From positions 1 to 55,606 of IMG/VR virus record IMGVR_UViG_3300030106_005674: DNA of 55,606 nucleotides. One strand, 5' to 3'. The notes beneath the pieces are model-generated. The model was given only the letters and a program-made list of their open reading frames with translations. It was not told where the DNA came from and searched no databases. This stretch comes from a virus. Positions 32,056-47,380 of the stretch are shown one piece after another. The position numbers were made by a program, and so were the translations under genes. How positions within the stretch are numbered: the stretch's first letter is position 1; each line of letters starts with the position of its first letter.

Positions 32056-32993
32056 TTAGTCCTAACGAACAAAAGTACTGGCATCTTTTCCCGTACATGA
32101 CAGATCACAATCACAATACTTGTGGGCACACTTTCGAGGAACACAAGCAGCGTAGATATAGCGCTGTTTTCCCCAGCAAGTTGGTCAACGTAGTTACGGC
32201 CCGTCGTTTTGTGCCGTCCGGGAATTTCCCTCGGACGGTCACTACCAGCGTGGTGTGCTGTAAACAGCGTCACGCAATTACCTTTGGTATTGACGGCTCA
32301 ATTATTCTCCATGGTCCTGACACCATAGAAGAGCTTAAAACTATGGCCATGTTCTCTGGCGAGAAACCGCGGCGTCTCCAAGTTTATGAGGCTTGGATGG
32401 CTTGCACTTCTTTCGAGGAAGCTAAATCGAATTGGGGTGACCATGTTCTGAGCCAGTACCGCAAAGACATTCCACAGGTTGCGCGGCAAACTCTGAATTG
32501 GGCATACAAAACTAATTCGGGTCATTACACCGGGGATAATCCTAAGATTGTGAATCGTGAGATTCAGTTATGCCGTTCGCAGTATCGGCGTTCTTGGGAG
32601 GGAGGTCGCAAGCCCTCTCTTCAGGAGAAACTTCAGGAGCACCGATACAATCTTGCCAAAGAATACTTCGGACATCTTTGGTCATTGTTCAATGACATGT
32701 ACCGACCGTACATTTGCACCTGGAAACACAGAATCGACAAGCAATTGAAGTGGTTTCACACTGTCAGAAAACTTCGCCTTCACCAGGTGAAGTATGTCCG
32801 GACAGCAGACGACTACTCAAATGTTGGAAAAGTATTCGACTGCTTTTCCTTCCCTGGTCGGTCCATAAAAACTGATGTCATTGCGACCGTGGTTTTCCGT
32901 GACCGCAAAGATGAGAACAAAAAAGAATTCTGTCATGCACATCTTGTGTCTGACTACAACCAACGCAACTGGAGAATAGCAGAATGGCTCTAA
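32052..32993 (+). CDS. 313-aa protein of the MoxR/VWA operon, unknown
   Basis: It overlaps the ATPase gene (ATGA) and the VWA gene (10 bases), so it is tightly co-expressed and probably part of the same complex. The sequence is rich in His, Arg, Tyr, Trp and Cys: N-terminal YMTDHNHNTCGHTFEEHK and SVVCCKQRH suggest possible metal binding; the middle (about residues 150-250) is helical and basic. No family is recognised. It may be the adaptor or the substrate of the MoxR-VWA pair. Confidence 0.7.
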   Translation: MISPNEQKYWHLFPYMTDHNHNTCGHTFEEHKQRRYSAVFPSKLVNVVTARRFVPSGNFPRTVTTSVVCCKQRHAITFGIDGSIILHGPDTIEELKTMAMFSGEKPRRLQVYEAWMACTSFEEAKSNWGDHVLSQYRKDIPQVARQTLNWAYKTNSGHYTGDNPKIVNREIQLCRSQYRRSWEGGRKPSLQEKLQEHRYNLAKEYFGHLWSLFNDMYRPYICTWKHRIDKQLKWFHTVRKLRLHQVKYVRTADDYSNVGKVFDCFSFPGRSIKTDVIATVVFRDRKDENKKEFCHAHLVSDYNQRNWRIAEWL

Positions 32994-43157: not shown

Positions 43158-44038
43158 GCGACGGAATCTTTGCCGTAATCTACGGCCCCTCAAAAACTGG
43201 TAAGAGCACAGCCACTGGTGCGGCTGGTGCCAACGGACTCTTCATCGCACAGACAGGCGGTCTGCTCCCCCTCAAGAACTTCTTGGGTCTGGAGAACATT
43301 AAGACTGCGGGTGCCAAGGATGTCGAGGCTGCGGGTACTCTTGTTGCCCAGAGTGCTGGAAAGACTCCGACAATTGTTGTCGATGACTTTTCTCTGCTGG
43401 TTGAGAGCACTGTGACTGAACTCGAAAAGAAGCACTCTTTCGGGGACATGTGGCGCAAGCTGCGGCAACAGGTTCTTTTCATGCGTGACTCTGCACGCTA
43501 CGCCACGTCAAAAGGAACGCACGTATTCTTCAACTGCCACCAAGTTCCGCCCAAGGTTTCTTCTGGCAAGAGAGTACGTGGTGGACCAAAGCTGCCTGGC
43601 CAACTTCCTGAGCAATTCTCAGCATTTGCAGATGTTGTTGCCCGTGCAGAATATGAGGAGACTGCCGCGCCCTGGAAGTATCTTCTCCGGACTGGGCCGC
43701 ACCCAGATTACATCGCAGGCGACCGGCTCGGTGTCCTGCCTGACCCGGCTCCGATGAACCTCAGAGAAGCACTAATCGCTGCCGGATATGATTTGCCCCG
43801 CCCCAAGGGATTCGAGTGGATGGACAAGACAGCAGACAAGCTCTGCGAACTTGTGCTCAAGAATGGGCTCGAAGACTGGAGAACAACTCTCCAGAAGGCG
43901 GGAAAAGAACTCGCAGGTAAGTACGACTTGCGACACGTCCGTTGGGTACTGCAGGATTCTCTGCACCGAGCGGTAATTCAAAACGCGGGCGAGAATATTC
44001 TCGACCAAATGTTCATCGATGAACAGGAGCAATGGTAA
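43154..44038 (+). CDS. Sak4-like RecA-type single-strand annealing ATPase (294 aa)
   Basis: An early P-loop, YGPSKTGKSTATG (about residues 10-22), and PTIVVDDFSLL as Walker B (about 75-85), with a further FFNCHQVPP (about 123-131) that is the sensor-like Q/H motif, identify a compact RecA-like ATPase of the Sak4 type, used in phage recombination. The C-terminus (about 200-294) is helical. Neighbouring SSB-like, RecB-like nuclease and HNH genes complete a recombination module. Start ATG overlaps the HNH stop. Confidence 0.8.
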   Translation: MSDGIFAVIYGPSKTGKSTATGAAGANGLFIAQTGGLLPLKNFLGLENIKTAGAKDVEAAGTLVAQSAGKTPTIVVDDFSLLVESTVTELEKKHSFGDMWRKLRQQVLFMRDSARYATSKGTHVFFNCHQVPPKVSSGKRVRGGPKLPGQLPEQFSAFADVVARAEYEETAAPWKYLLRTGPHPDYIAGDRLGVLPDPAPMNLREALIAAGYDLPRPKGFEWMDKTADKLCELVLKNGLEDWRTTLQKAGKELAGKYDLRHVRWVLQDSLHRAVIQNAGENILDQMFIDEQEQW

Positions 44039-44040
44039 TC

Positions 44041-44574
44041 ATGAGCGATCTTAATATTGAACTCGACTTCACTGGTATTCAAGCAGCTTCGGGTGGCCTC
44101 GGCTACCTCAAGACTGGCCTTCACACAGGAACAATCCTTGAGTTTACTCACTTCGAGGACTCTGGGCGCTTGTATGCCTACTACATGACAAACGGTGTCC
44201 GTCACCGGGACTCATTCAATCTTACTTCCCCCAATGCACTACCTTTCCTGAAGGCTATGCTTGAGAGTGCAGGTGTTCCCGCATCTAAGCTCGGTGGGAA
44301 GGGAAACATTCCGTTCCATAAGCTGGCCGGAAAGACCGTGTACTTCAACTATGTTGCACCAGAGATGGACAGCACCGGGAAGGCTGTTCAGGGTTCGTAC
44401 CCTAAGTACACCTACTACACCAAGGACCGCTACACACAAATGGCTGAGGTCTCCTCTCTTCAGCCCCAGGATGTGGACGTAGCCCAAACGAATGGGGGCG
44501 GCGCTCCGGTTTCGCAAGCATCCGGCGCAGCGTCTAACGACGACTTCGATTTCCTCCTTGGCTCTGACGACTAG
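44041..44574 (+). CDS. Single-stranded DNA-binding-like protein (177 aa)
   Basis: I prefer ATG 44041 to the ATG at 44032, because AGGAG (44025-44029) is only two bases from the latter and eleven from the former. The product is a beta-rich protein (LHTGTILEFTHFEDSGRLYA), with a flexible linker rich in Q, G, A and S and an acidic end (NDDFDFLLGSDD), which is the usual tail of SSB-type proteins that recruits partners. It sits directly after the Sak4-like ATPase. The family resembles DUF669-type SSB proteins, by pattern only. Confidence 0.75.
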   Translation: MSDLNIELDFTGIQAASGGLGYLKTGLHTGTILEFTHFEDSGRLYAYYMTNGVRHRDSFNLTSPNALPFLKAMLESAGVPASKLGGKGNIPFHKLAGKTVYFNYVAPEMDSTGKAVQGSYPKYTYYTKDRYTQMAEVSSLQPQDVDVAQTNGGGAPVSQASGAASNDDFDFLLGSDD

Positions 44575-44586
44575 CAGTTTGGAACA

Positions 44587-44806
44587 CCACCATGGCAGAC
44601 GGTGGAAATAGTCTGCCTTCCTGTTGCGACCGCTGGCGGGTCGGTCGAAAAAATACCCGCCCCATTTTGCCATCGTTGCGCCGCTAAAGTCGGTTCTGCC
44701 AGGGGCTAAGCATCCCCGTTGAGTGACGATGGCAACCATACCAAAAAAGTGCCAACCTTTTGCCGGTCCTGAAAGCACTCTAATCTAGGAAGGTCAAGGA
44801 CCGGCA
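44587..44806 (+). ncRNA. Candidate structured RNA with two tandem H-type pseudoknots
   Basis: In the gap between the SSB-like and polymerase genes the plus strand can form two pseudoknots of one design. PK1: CCACC 44587-44591 with GGTGG 44601-44605, and GGCAGAC 44594-44600 with GTCTGCC 44611-44617. PK2: CGACCG 44627-44632 with CGGTCG 44642-44647, and GGCGGGT 44635-44641 with ACCCGCC 44655-44661. In each, loop 1 is 2 bases, the stems abut, and the last loop is A-rich (AAATA; AAAAAAT). Two perfect 10-bp helices follow: TTGCCATCGT 44667-44676 with ACGATGGCAA 44726-44735, and TGCCGGTCCT 44761-44770 with AGGACCGGCA 44797-44806; a T7 run begins at 44813. No reading frame fits. Function is unknown: cis-regulator of the polymerase or a free RNA. 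Confidence 0.75.
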
Positions 44807-44836
44807 CCCACCTTTTTTTCTTGGAATTAGCTCTCC

Positions 44837-47380
44837 ATGTCTATCTCCTGTGCCAAATGCAATTCTTGCTCACTCGGAATCAAGCTCCGCAAAAGCGACG
44901 AGCAGGTTCCTGTGTTGGGTGAGTCCCACAAGAATGGGCGCATAGCTATAGTTGGAGACTTTCCGGGTACCCACGAGACCTCTGAGGGTCGCCCTTTTGT
45001 TGGCCCAAGTGGTCATGAACTTCAAGCTGCTTTGGACGAGGCTGGGTTGAAACGCTCAGACTGTCTCATCACTAATGCCATCGCATGCCGTCCCCCCGCC
45101 AACAGGCTCGACACTTTCATGGTTCAACATTCGCGAGCAAACAAGAAGCGTAAGAGTGAGAAGAAAGAACTCCTCCTCTCTCCCGCTGAGGCCTGCTCTG
45201 GAAGACTCATGTCTGAGCTTGAGGGATACACCCAAATCATCTGCCTGGGTACAGAAGCTGCCCGCGCAGTTCGGGGCGGTAACGCTTCTATCATGTCTAT
45301 GCGTGGTGCTTGTGAAGAGATTGAGATGCCCTGGGGTCAGGTCCAGATTGGCTACACTCTTCACCCCTCGTTTGTTCTTAGGTCTCCAAAGTGGCAACCC
45401 GTTTTTCGTCGGGACATCCGCAAGGCTCTCCGTTTCTTTTCTGGTGACCTGAAGTGGAAAGACCCTGAAATCTATCTACCCAAGACCGTGGGAGAAATAC
45501 TTCAAGGATTTCAACGACTTATACGTGATGACAGTCCGATTGCCTATGATGTTGAGACAGACGCAAAGAACCCTATGGCCGCTCGACTTCGTTGCATCGG
45601 GTTCGCAAACACCAAGTTTAGTATGGTCGTTCCCCTACTGAGTATCGACGGTCGAACCAACTTCTTCCACGGCGCTGACGAACGGGTGGTCAAGAAGATG
45701 CTTAGGGACTTTCTCAAGGACTGCCCTCTGCCCCTCATGGGCCACAATGCTGGTCAGTACGACCGCCTCGTCTGTGAGGAGCAGCTTGGTATTACGCCTC
45801 GACTGGATGTGGATACCATCCTCCTCCACTTGCTCGCCGACAACGAGATGCCCCACAACCTGGGCTTTGTCACAAGTTTTTATTCAGACTTCACTGAGGC
45901 ATGGAAAGCTGACCATACAGCCGTCGATGCCCGTAGTGACGTTGAATTGCATACCTACTGCGCGAAGGACTGCGCGGTGACAGCAAAGGTTTCCAAGCCC
46001 CTTGCCCGCCAAGTTAAGTCTCATTCTCAGTGGGGCCTGGTTTCTACGGAGCACCAGCTTCAGTGGGTGGGAACAGGAATGCAGCGTCTCGGCATGTTCG
46101 TCGACAATGACAAGCTGCAGGAACACAAGCTCAACTTCCAGCAGAAGCTGACCGAGAACCGGAAGCTGACTGAGAACCTTGGGCCAGTAGACTTCAACCC
46201 TAATTCTACACATCAACTCCGCCGTCTCATCTTCAGTGATTGGGGCCTGCCTCCTGCCAAGTACAACGAGAAGACAGGAGACCCAAGCACCGATGACGAT
46301 ACGCTCCGTAAGATTATTACTACGTATGACATCGATGAGGAGAAGAAAGAATTTATCCAAGCAATTCGCATGGTTAGGAGATACACAAAGCTCCTGAGCA
46401 CCTACATCCGCCCTCTTGAGAGTGGCGAGCTTGTGCTCAGTGACGGGCGTGTACACCCCTCGTACAACCGTCTTCCAGCGACGGGTCGGTACTCATCGAG
46501 TTCGCCCAATGCCCAGAACATCCCATTTTTCCTTAGAGACATTTTCGTGCCTGAACCCGGCCATGTCTTTGTAGGGGCCGACGCAGACCAACTTGAGCTT
46601 CGGTATATCGCAGAAGAGTCAGGCGCTGACCGGCTCATCGAAATCATCAACAACGGGCTCGACCCGCACAACGAGACAATGGAGATTGTATATGGCAAAG
46701 GCATCTGGGAGCTTGAGGGAGCGCCGAAGGAAAGGACGCAGAAAGGCAAAGGAACATTCAAGTCTACTCGCGGCGTTACCAAGAATGTCCGATATGCTTG
46801 GCAGTACGCAGCCAGTGTCCCAACCATCCACGAGCAGGTCATCAGTGTCGAAGACGAGGCGGGTAGTCTCATTTATGCACACCTGACTCACCGAGACATC
46901 CGTGATGTTGTGCATGGCCTCAAGCGCGCCGACCCTGAGATTCCGAAGTGGTGGGACTCAGTAAGAAACCGCTACAGAAGAGAGGGCTACGTTGCCGACT
47001 CTCTTTGGGGTCGCCGTCGTTATTTCCGCGACGAAGAAAAGATTAACGAGCTTGTGAACCACCCGATTCAGACAGGTGGGGCTTCCATTATCCATGAAGC
47101 CATGCTCGAATTAGTTCTGGGTACCCCCGGCAAGGGGACCGTTTCCAACCACATATCAGATGTGTCCAGCCTTCTGCGGGGTGCCCTCCCTTTTAACTTT
47201 GAGGCCAGAACTGGCCTCGTCAACCAATGCCACGACTCACTCATGTTTGAGGTTCCCGAAGAGAAGGGGGAAGAAGTGGCTGAACTACTGCAAGCAGCAA
47301 TGACCCGCAAACGTCGTAAGGGAGCAAGACTCGTTTACACGGCTGAAGCTGAAGTTGGTCAAAGCTGGCTGGAGGTATGA
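44837..47380 (+). CDS. Uracil-DNA glycosylase / family A DNA polymerase fusion (847 aa)
   Basis: Residues 1 to about 200 form a family-4-like uracil-DNA glycosylase: cysteines C5, C8, C84 and C120 as an iron-sulphur set (C11 extra), motif A GDFPGTHETSEGRPFVG, NAIACRPPANR and motif B LHPSF. The exonuclease domain follows (D238-x-E240 in DVETD, GHNAGQYDRL, YCAKD), then polymerase motifs A (D582 in DADQLELR), B (R645-x3-K649-x3-Y653) and C (H799-D800-S801). It would be the replicative polymerase with a built-in uracil sensor. SPO1-type phage polymerases also carry an N-terminal UDG-like domain. SD is weak (GGA 12 bases before ATG), and a structured RNA lies upstream. Confidence 0.9.
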   Translation: MSISCAKCNSCSLGIKLRKSDEQVPVLGESHKNGRIAIVGDFPGTHETSEGRPFVGPSGHELQAALDEAGLKRSDCLITNAIACRPPANRLDTFMVQHSRANKKRKSEKKELLLSPAEACSGRLMSELEGYTQIICLGTEAARAVRGGNASIMSMRGACEEIEMPWGQVQIGYTLHPSFVLRSPKWQPVFRRDIRKALRFFSGDLKWKDPEIYLPKTVGEILQGFQRLIRDDSPIAYDVETDAKNPMAARLRCIGFANTKFSMVVPLLSIDGRTNFFHGADERVVKKMLRDFLKDCPLPLMGHNAGQYDRLVCEEQLGITPRLDVDTILLHLLADNEMPHNLGFVTSFYSDFTEAWKADHTAVDARSDVELHTYCAKDCAVTAKVSKPLARQVKSHSQWGLVSTEHQLQWVGTGMQRLGMFVDNDKLQEHKLNFQQKLTENRKLTENLGPVDFNPNSTHQLRRLIFSDWGLPPAKYNEKTGDPSTDDDTLRKIITTYDIDEEKKEFIQAIRMVRRYTKLLSTYIRPLESGELVLSDGRVHPSYNRLPATGRYSSSSPNAQNIPFFLRDIFVPEPGHVFVGADADQLELRYIAEESGADRLIEIINNGLDPHNETMEIVYGKGIWELEGAPKERTQKGKGTFKSTRGVTKNVRYAWQYAASVPTIHEQVISVEDEAGSLIYAHLTHRDIRDVVHGLKRADPEIPKWWDSVRNRYRREGYVADSLWGRRRYFRDEEKINELVNHPIQTGGASIIHEAMLELVLGTPGKGTVSNHISDVSSLLRGALPFNFEARTGLVNQCHDSLMFEVPEEKGEEVAELLQAAMTRKRRKGARLVYTAEAEVGQSWLEV

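Follow-up and report, generated by a model that had tools for sequence, protein, structure and literature searches.

The window, that is the whole stretch of viral DNA that was analysed (55,606 nt, IMG/VR record IMGVR_UViG_3300030106_005674), carries on its plus strand a gene for a putative single-stranded-DNA-binding (SSB)-like protein, followed by a gene for a fusion of UDG, 3'-5' exonuclease and family A DNA polymerase whose closest annotated phage relatives are ~20–27% identical. Pfam and PHROG searches with the upstream protein gave no match. Its AlphaFold model (pLDDT 83) had as top structural match PrgE of pCF10 (E 1.4e-5), an ssDNA-binding OB-fold protein, and matched phage DUF669 and SSB proteins in a viral library; by predicted fold, the product is thus an SSB-like, OB-fold protein. 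The gap between the two genes contains two pseudoknots, PK1 and PK2, each formed by two stems (P1 and P2) and two loops (L1 and L3), and further candidate RNA structures (Table 1). PK1 starts 12 nt past the stop codon of the SSB-like gene; its distance to the polymerase gene is about 220 nt.

Table 1. Features of the SSB-polymerase region of the window
Feature	Position	Strand	Details
Upstream gene, SSB-like protein	44032–44574	+	ORF; OB fold, acidic tail DDFDFLLGSDD; TAG stop 44572–44574
PK1	44587–44617	+	P1 44587–44591/44601–44605; L1 44592–44593; P2 44594–44600/44611–44617; L3 44606–44610
Spacer of 9 nt between PK1 and PK2	44618–44626	+	TTCCTGTTG; kept in L002–L006
PK2	44627–44661	+	P1 44627–44632/44642–44647; L1 44633–44634; P2 44635–44641/44655–44661; L3 44648–44654
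G-free flank 3' of PK2	44662–44668	+	CCATTTT; weak form of the family 3' U tract
Third structured element	44667–44735	+	10-bp stem TTGCCATCGT/ACGATGGCAA enclosing inner hairpins; L002 differs by two paired changes
Possible larger pseudoknot	44748–44819	+	From sequence; AGTGC/GCACT and GCCGGTCCT/AGGACCGGC, then T7; absent from L002
Downstream gene, UDG + 3'-5' exonuclease + family A DNA polymerase fusion	44837–47380	+	Pfam

The stem of the third element reads GCTATCGC/GCGATAGC in L002, and the folding z for 44664–44830 was -2.5. Conserved, probably structured RNAs were also seen in the corresponding gap of other phages: one lying some 250 nt ahead of the polymerase gene in L017, L019 and L020, and another, GGAGGYGGTGGGATTCA...CCACCACCTCC, in L028–L055, with a tRNA in addition in L052. 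The SSB-polymerase gap of related phages looks like a small-RNA cluster.

PK1 (CCACC-at-GGCAGAC-GGTGG-aaata-GTCTGCC; stems of 5 and 7 bp) and PK2 (CGACCG-ct-GGCGGGT-CGGTCG-aaaaaat-ACCCGCC; stems of 6 and 7 bp) both have a 2-nt L1, no spacer between the stems and an A-rich L3. Under strict criteria (perfect pairs, P1 of at least 5 and P2 of at least 6, no L2), a scan of the plus strand of the 55.6 kb matched PK1 and PK2 only, while dinucleotide shuffles yielded 0.35 such pseudoknots per strand and two within 30 nt in 0 of 60. Since a looser scan (G-U allowed, P1 of at least 4) returned dozens of candidates, some equal in score, the strength of PK1 and PK2 lies in their strict perfection, their tandem layout and, above all, their conservation. 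In L003, PK1 has compensatory changes in both stems (P1 CCACC/GGTGG to CCGCT/GGCGG, P2 to GGCAGAT/ATCTGCT), and P2 of PK2 (GGCGGGT/ACCCGCC) is related by three paired changes to the GGCAGAC/GTCTGCC found in L003 and elsewhere. A preliminary description of this DNA had proposed two H-type pseudoknots of one design, which the strict scan, the shuffles and the covariation in relatives (see below) bear out. It had also held the plus strand to be the meaningful one and the minus strand to give poorer loops. The first part stands, because copies in other phages sit on the coding strand just 3' of a stop codon, but the second holds only in part, as the strict scan found one perfect minus-strand alternative at 44635–44668, overlapping PK2.

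PK1 and PK2 belong, as a tandem pair, to a widespread family of phage pseudoknots, here called class A, of ~33 nt, consisting of P1, an L1 of CU or AU, a 7-bp P2 (mostly GGCAGAC/GUCUGCC), an A-rich L3 and a G-poor U tract. Loci of polymerase homologues have the core CCG-CU-GGCAGAC-CGG-L3-GUCUGCC in common, and the same design precedes the polymerase gene in several lineages and follows it in L021–L023. A pattern scan of viral contigs found class A in at least 120 contigs, and a GGCRCCC/GGGYGCC variant of the pattern gave 42 matches in viral contigs. Whole or nearly whole contigs mostly carry one copy, sometimes two or three, and in one marine clade class A occurs at consecutive gene junctions with differing P2 sequences. 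The family is nearly absent from cultured phages: a BLAST search with the motif gave Xanthomonas phage XAJ2 (P1 AAGCG/CGCUU, near record position 32,487) as the one confirmed cultured carrier, other matches being partial or at most candidates, and a near-identity search of cultured phages with the window junction gave no match. The motif is also present in an uncultured gut phage record (L187).

Some matches in bacterial genomes are prophage-like (L205, L212 and L229). Those in Bradyrhizobium (L195–L197, L202, L209, L211, L214, L218, L227, L232 and L235) correspond to a conserved palindromic CCGCTGGCAGACCGGTACGTCTGCC in bacterial chromosomes; they were rejected as family members, since they look like a different palindromic repeat, with a 3-nt loop, that matches the pattern and is probably unrelated.

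No Rfam 15 family scored above its gathering threshold for class A, only tRNAs being reported, and permissive E-values gave nothing significant on the window pseudoknots, so that the covariance-model search proposed in the preliminary description matched no family to them. A literature search did not find a description of the motif, and class A is apparently an undescribed RNA family. A model (R1) built from pattern-selected copies was too narrow for significant E-values in the window, where it placed PK2 and PK1 at ranks 1 and 3 (E 0.65 and 2.3, respectively).

Since pattern searches force the sequence, covariation was assessed on loci retrieved through homology to the upstream SSB protein. 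These loci gave 59 distinct junctions, of which a script called 36 class A; one (L614), better read as a plain hairpin, was moved by hand to 'other', leaving 35. In an alignment of these 35 junctions and the two window pseudoknots (A2), 99.7% of the cells were paired. Double-sided changes occurred at 5 of the 7 P2 pairs, and the two stems together had 39 double-sided cells versus 8 in shuffles, none of 500 shuffles being as high; slid controls collapsed. The check in related phages put forward in the preliminary description thus came out in favour of the pairing. The fourth P1 pair, which lies beyond CCG/CGG and is not fixed by the pattern, was formed in 76 of 92 non-redundant copies versus 43 expected, as GU, CG, GC, UA or AU, and P1 variants were found in L003, L079, XAJ2 and PK1 of the window. 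A pattern scan for variant P1 stems was left out of the evidence, since its 13 of 68 matches with at least 4 pairs were little above a rough chance estimate. These sequence comparisons indicate that the class A fold is an H-type pseudoknot of two crossing stems with compensatory changes.

In the 92 non-redundant copies, P1 starts at a median of 13.5 nt (mostly 6–24 nt) past the stop codon, and the next start codon lies at a median of 26 nt (mostly 13–37 nt) past P2. At positions +3 to +11, 60% of the copies have T at 5 or more of the 9 positions, as against 5% of segments similarly far past the ends of other ORFs, and the G value is 0.64 versus a background of 2.37; the enrichment is for T, not A. 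A 3-nt RCY spacer precedes the tract, and a strong U tract is missing in about 40% of the copies. The window has weak tracts, none for PK1 and TTTT only for PK2. A search whose query was pasted from two homologous SSBs serves only to identify their family as SSB. The upstream genes encode SSBs of PHROGs 1192/224, 9002, 112 and 44, major head protein (3437) and virion protein (8455), although a minority of the copies follow a small gene or one without identification, and the downstream genes vary (UvsX, Dam, RecE-like exonuclease, PolA, helicase-like protein and tail tubular protein). The 'polymerase leader' of the preliminary description is therefore incidental: the element follows SSB and capsid stop codons, precedes unrelated genes elsewhere and has no fixed link with the polymerase. 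What recurs is an upstream gene belonging to a type that is usually abundant during infection. Phage SSB and capsid genes are in general highly expressed and, by analogy, the upstream genes are probably highly expressed in these phages too.

Three other roles were considered and set aside. i) A frameshift or readthrough stimulator was discarded, because the 69 junctions examined had only 3 in-frame slippery heptamers and used all three stop codons without preference. ii) A DNA-level element (origin or recombination site) is weakened by the location of the copies on the coding strand right after the stop codon. iii) A type III antitoxin-like array was rejected, as the window copies are flanked by SSB and polymerase genes with no toxin-like neighbour.

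The junction after the gp32-like SSB gene (n = 59) is occupied by class A in 35 cases, by a second pseudoknot, class B, in 7, by a hairpin followed by T residues in 10 and by other sequences in 7. Switches between these states number at least 9 on the SSB tree, where the pseudoknot clade also includes the eight main rows with hairpin terminators, although several of its forks are not resolved. At the capsid junction, class A lies between the capsid gene and a tail protein gene in all 25 distinct relatives. A naive scan for hairpins with T tracts already labels several class A copies as terminators. The interchangeability of the pseudoknot with an ordinary terminator is our main reason for preferring a terminator or 3'-end role to a sensor or a polymerase operator, and it argues against the polymerase autoregulation suggested in the preliminary description.

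Class B, found at SSB junctions, consists of a variable P1, an L1 of RCAGG and a P2 of GAGGCAY/RUGCCUC, followed by A and a U tract. It was located at L007:2931, L028:2844, L030:2857, L038:2790, L068 (minus strand), L557, L560, L563, L568, L583, L587 and L606, is sometimes in tandem with class A (L068 and L007), and had no Rfam match in the loci scanned.

We lean towards the view that class A is a pseudoknotted terminator or 3'-end element that raises expression of the upstream gene over that of the downstream gene. In phages it would come immediately 3' of the stop codon of genes with high expression, namely SSB in the early phase and major capsid in the late phase. During folding of the nascent RNA, the 7-bp P2 beside the G-free, U-rich tract would act as the stem of a Rho-independent terminator, with P1 locking the P2 loop into a pseudoknot. 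Judging from these features, RNA polymerase may stop, or the mRNA end may be stabilised, at class A. The outcome would be partial termination and/or an exonuclease-resistant 3' end, with the upstream protein made in excess over the product of the downstream gene (polymerase, recombinase, nuclease, methylase or tail protein). Protection from exonuclease, an idea of the preliminary description, is compatible with this. Against a terminator, besides the copies with a weak or missing U tract (those of the window among them) and the RCY spacer ahead of the tract, i) the sequence of P1, L1 and P2 is conserved far beyond the needs of a terminator stem, ii) G009 has a strong hairpin with T residues just upstream of the pseudoknot, iii) some copies lie about 100 nt behind the upstream gene and less than 30 nt from the next start, and iv) strong terminators after consecutive genes, as in the marine clade, would be costly. 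More tentatively, it is possible that the conserved pseudoknot represents a novel class of cis-acting RNA and is itself a terminator or attenuator, perhaps modulated by SSB or host factors, that has spread through many uncultivated dsDNA phage lineages and sets the ratio of an abundant protein (SSB or capsid) to the product of the following gene; another pseudoknot family, unrelated to it, would have the same task.

The excess conservation of P1, L1 and P2 means that a protein partner is possible, and T4 gene 32 makes SSB the first candidate. The pseudoknot of T4-type gene 32 is possibly the only viral example in autoregulation of translation, according to a 2010 review (PMC3014915). Like class A, the T4/T2 pseudoknot is of the H type with a 7-bp second stem, a short L1 and no L2 at a phage SSB gene, and the T4 leader can be read with similar geometry (7-bp second stem, one-base L1, no L2). 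At an operator of this style, excess SSB would bind the knot, spread across the adjoining tract into the next ribosome binding site and repress the downstream replication genes or its own mRNA, as might be expected from the many copies adjoining SSB genes. However, whereas the T4/T2 pseudoknot lies 5' of the SSB gene and is followed by A+U repeats, the SSB-associated copies in the set examined are all 3' of the gene and none 5', with a flank that is U-rich rather than A+U-rich. Moreover, the adjacent SSBs belong to different families, class A also lies between major capsid and tail genes, and ordinary terminators take its place at the same junction. SSB autoregulation still competes with the terminator reading, but less strongly, and we consider it unlikely.

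The tight spacing to both neighbouring genes could also point to a ribosome-level insulator, with the knot at the front edge of the ribosome on the stop codon blocking run-on or reinitiation into the next gene, but short spacers are expected anyway in compact phage genomes and the U-specific, G-free flank is left unexplained, which makes this quite improbable. We rate as similarly improbable an element for mRNA processing or decay only, which would be cleaved or would halt exonucleases in the gap between genes but would not terminate transcription. Intergenic processing of a comparable kind takes place at the intergenic RNase III sites of T7, coaxial stacking of P1 and P2 would give 10–13 bp, and the arrays at consecutive gene junctions would suit such a role; however, the U tract and the exchange with classic terminators point to termination too. 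Such a role also has a parallel in RydC, which depends on its U-tailed pseudoknot for RNA stability (PMC4337610) and resembles class A in this arrangement; RydC is, however, a trans-acting, Hfq-dependent sRNA, and homology is not claimed. Least of all do we expect a ligand sensor, such as a riboswitch, that controls the polymerase gene, as envisaged in the preliminary description: the conserved P1, L1 and P2 and the A-rich L3 may recall compact pseudoknot riboswitches, but the downstream genes share no pathway, no ribosome-binding site lies inside the fold, the P2 pairs swap freely and plain hairpins replace the knot at the same junction.

A terminator or 3'-end role for class A is closest to intrinsic terminators such as Tphi of T7, which lies between genes 10 and 11. 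Both have a GC-rich stem past the stop codon and a U-rich, G-free tract on the coding strand, both occupy the same location from the capsid to the tail-tubular gene, and related phages have a classic terminator at the class A junction. Unlike an intrinsic terminator, class A has its loop locked by a second stem, is strongly conserved in sequence across phages and often has a weak U tract, offset by RCY. STAXI (RF01728) is likewise a simple pseudoknot found in tandem copies close to genes for SSB and other DNA-handling proteins. The tandem repetition (at least 2) holds for the window, whereas most phages have a single copy; class A has no UUCG loops, STAXI was described from Enterobacteriales, and the STAXI covariance model did not match class A even at permissive E-values.

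Class A appears to be an RNA family not described before, with strong covariation and a precise genomic position; it is carried by one cultured phage and, among environmental phages, by at least 120 contigs. Should it bind SSB, the T4 gene 32 precedent would be extended beyond what was, as of 2010, possibly the sole viral example. If it terminates transcription, it would be a natural pseudoknot standing in for the textbook terminator hairpin, and would mark where SSB and capsid transcripts end in uncultivated phages.
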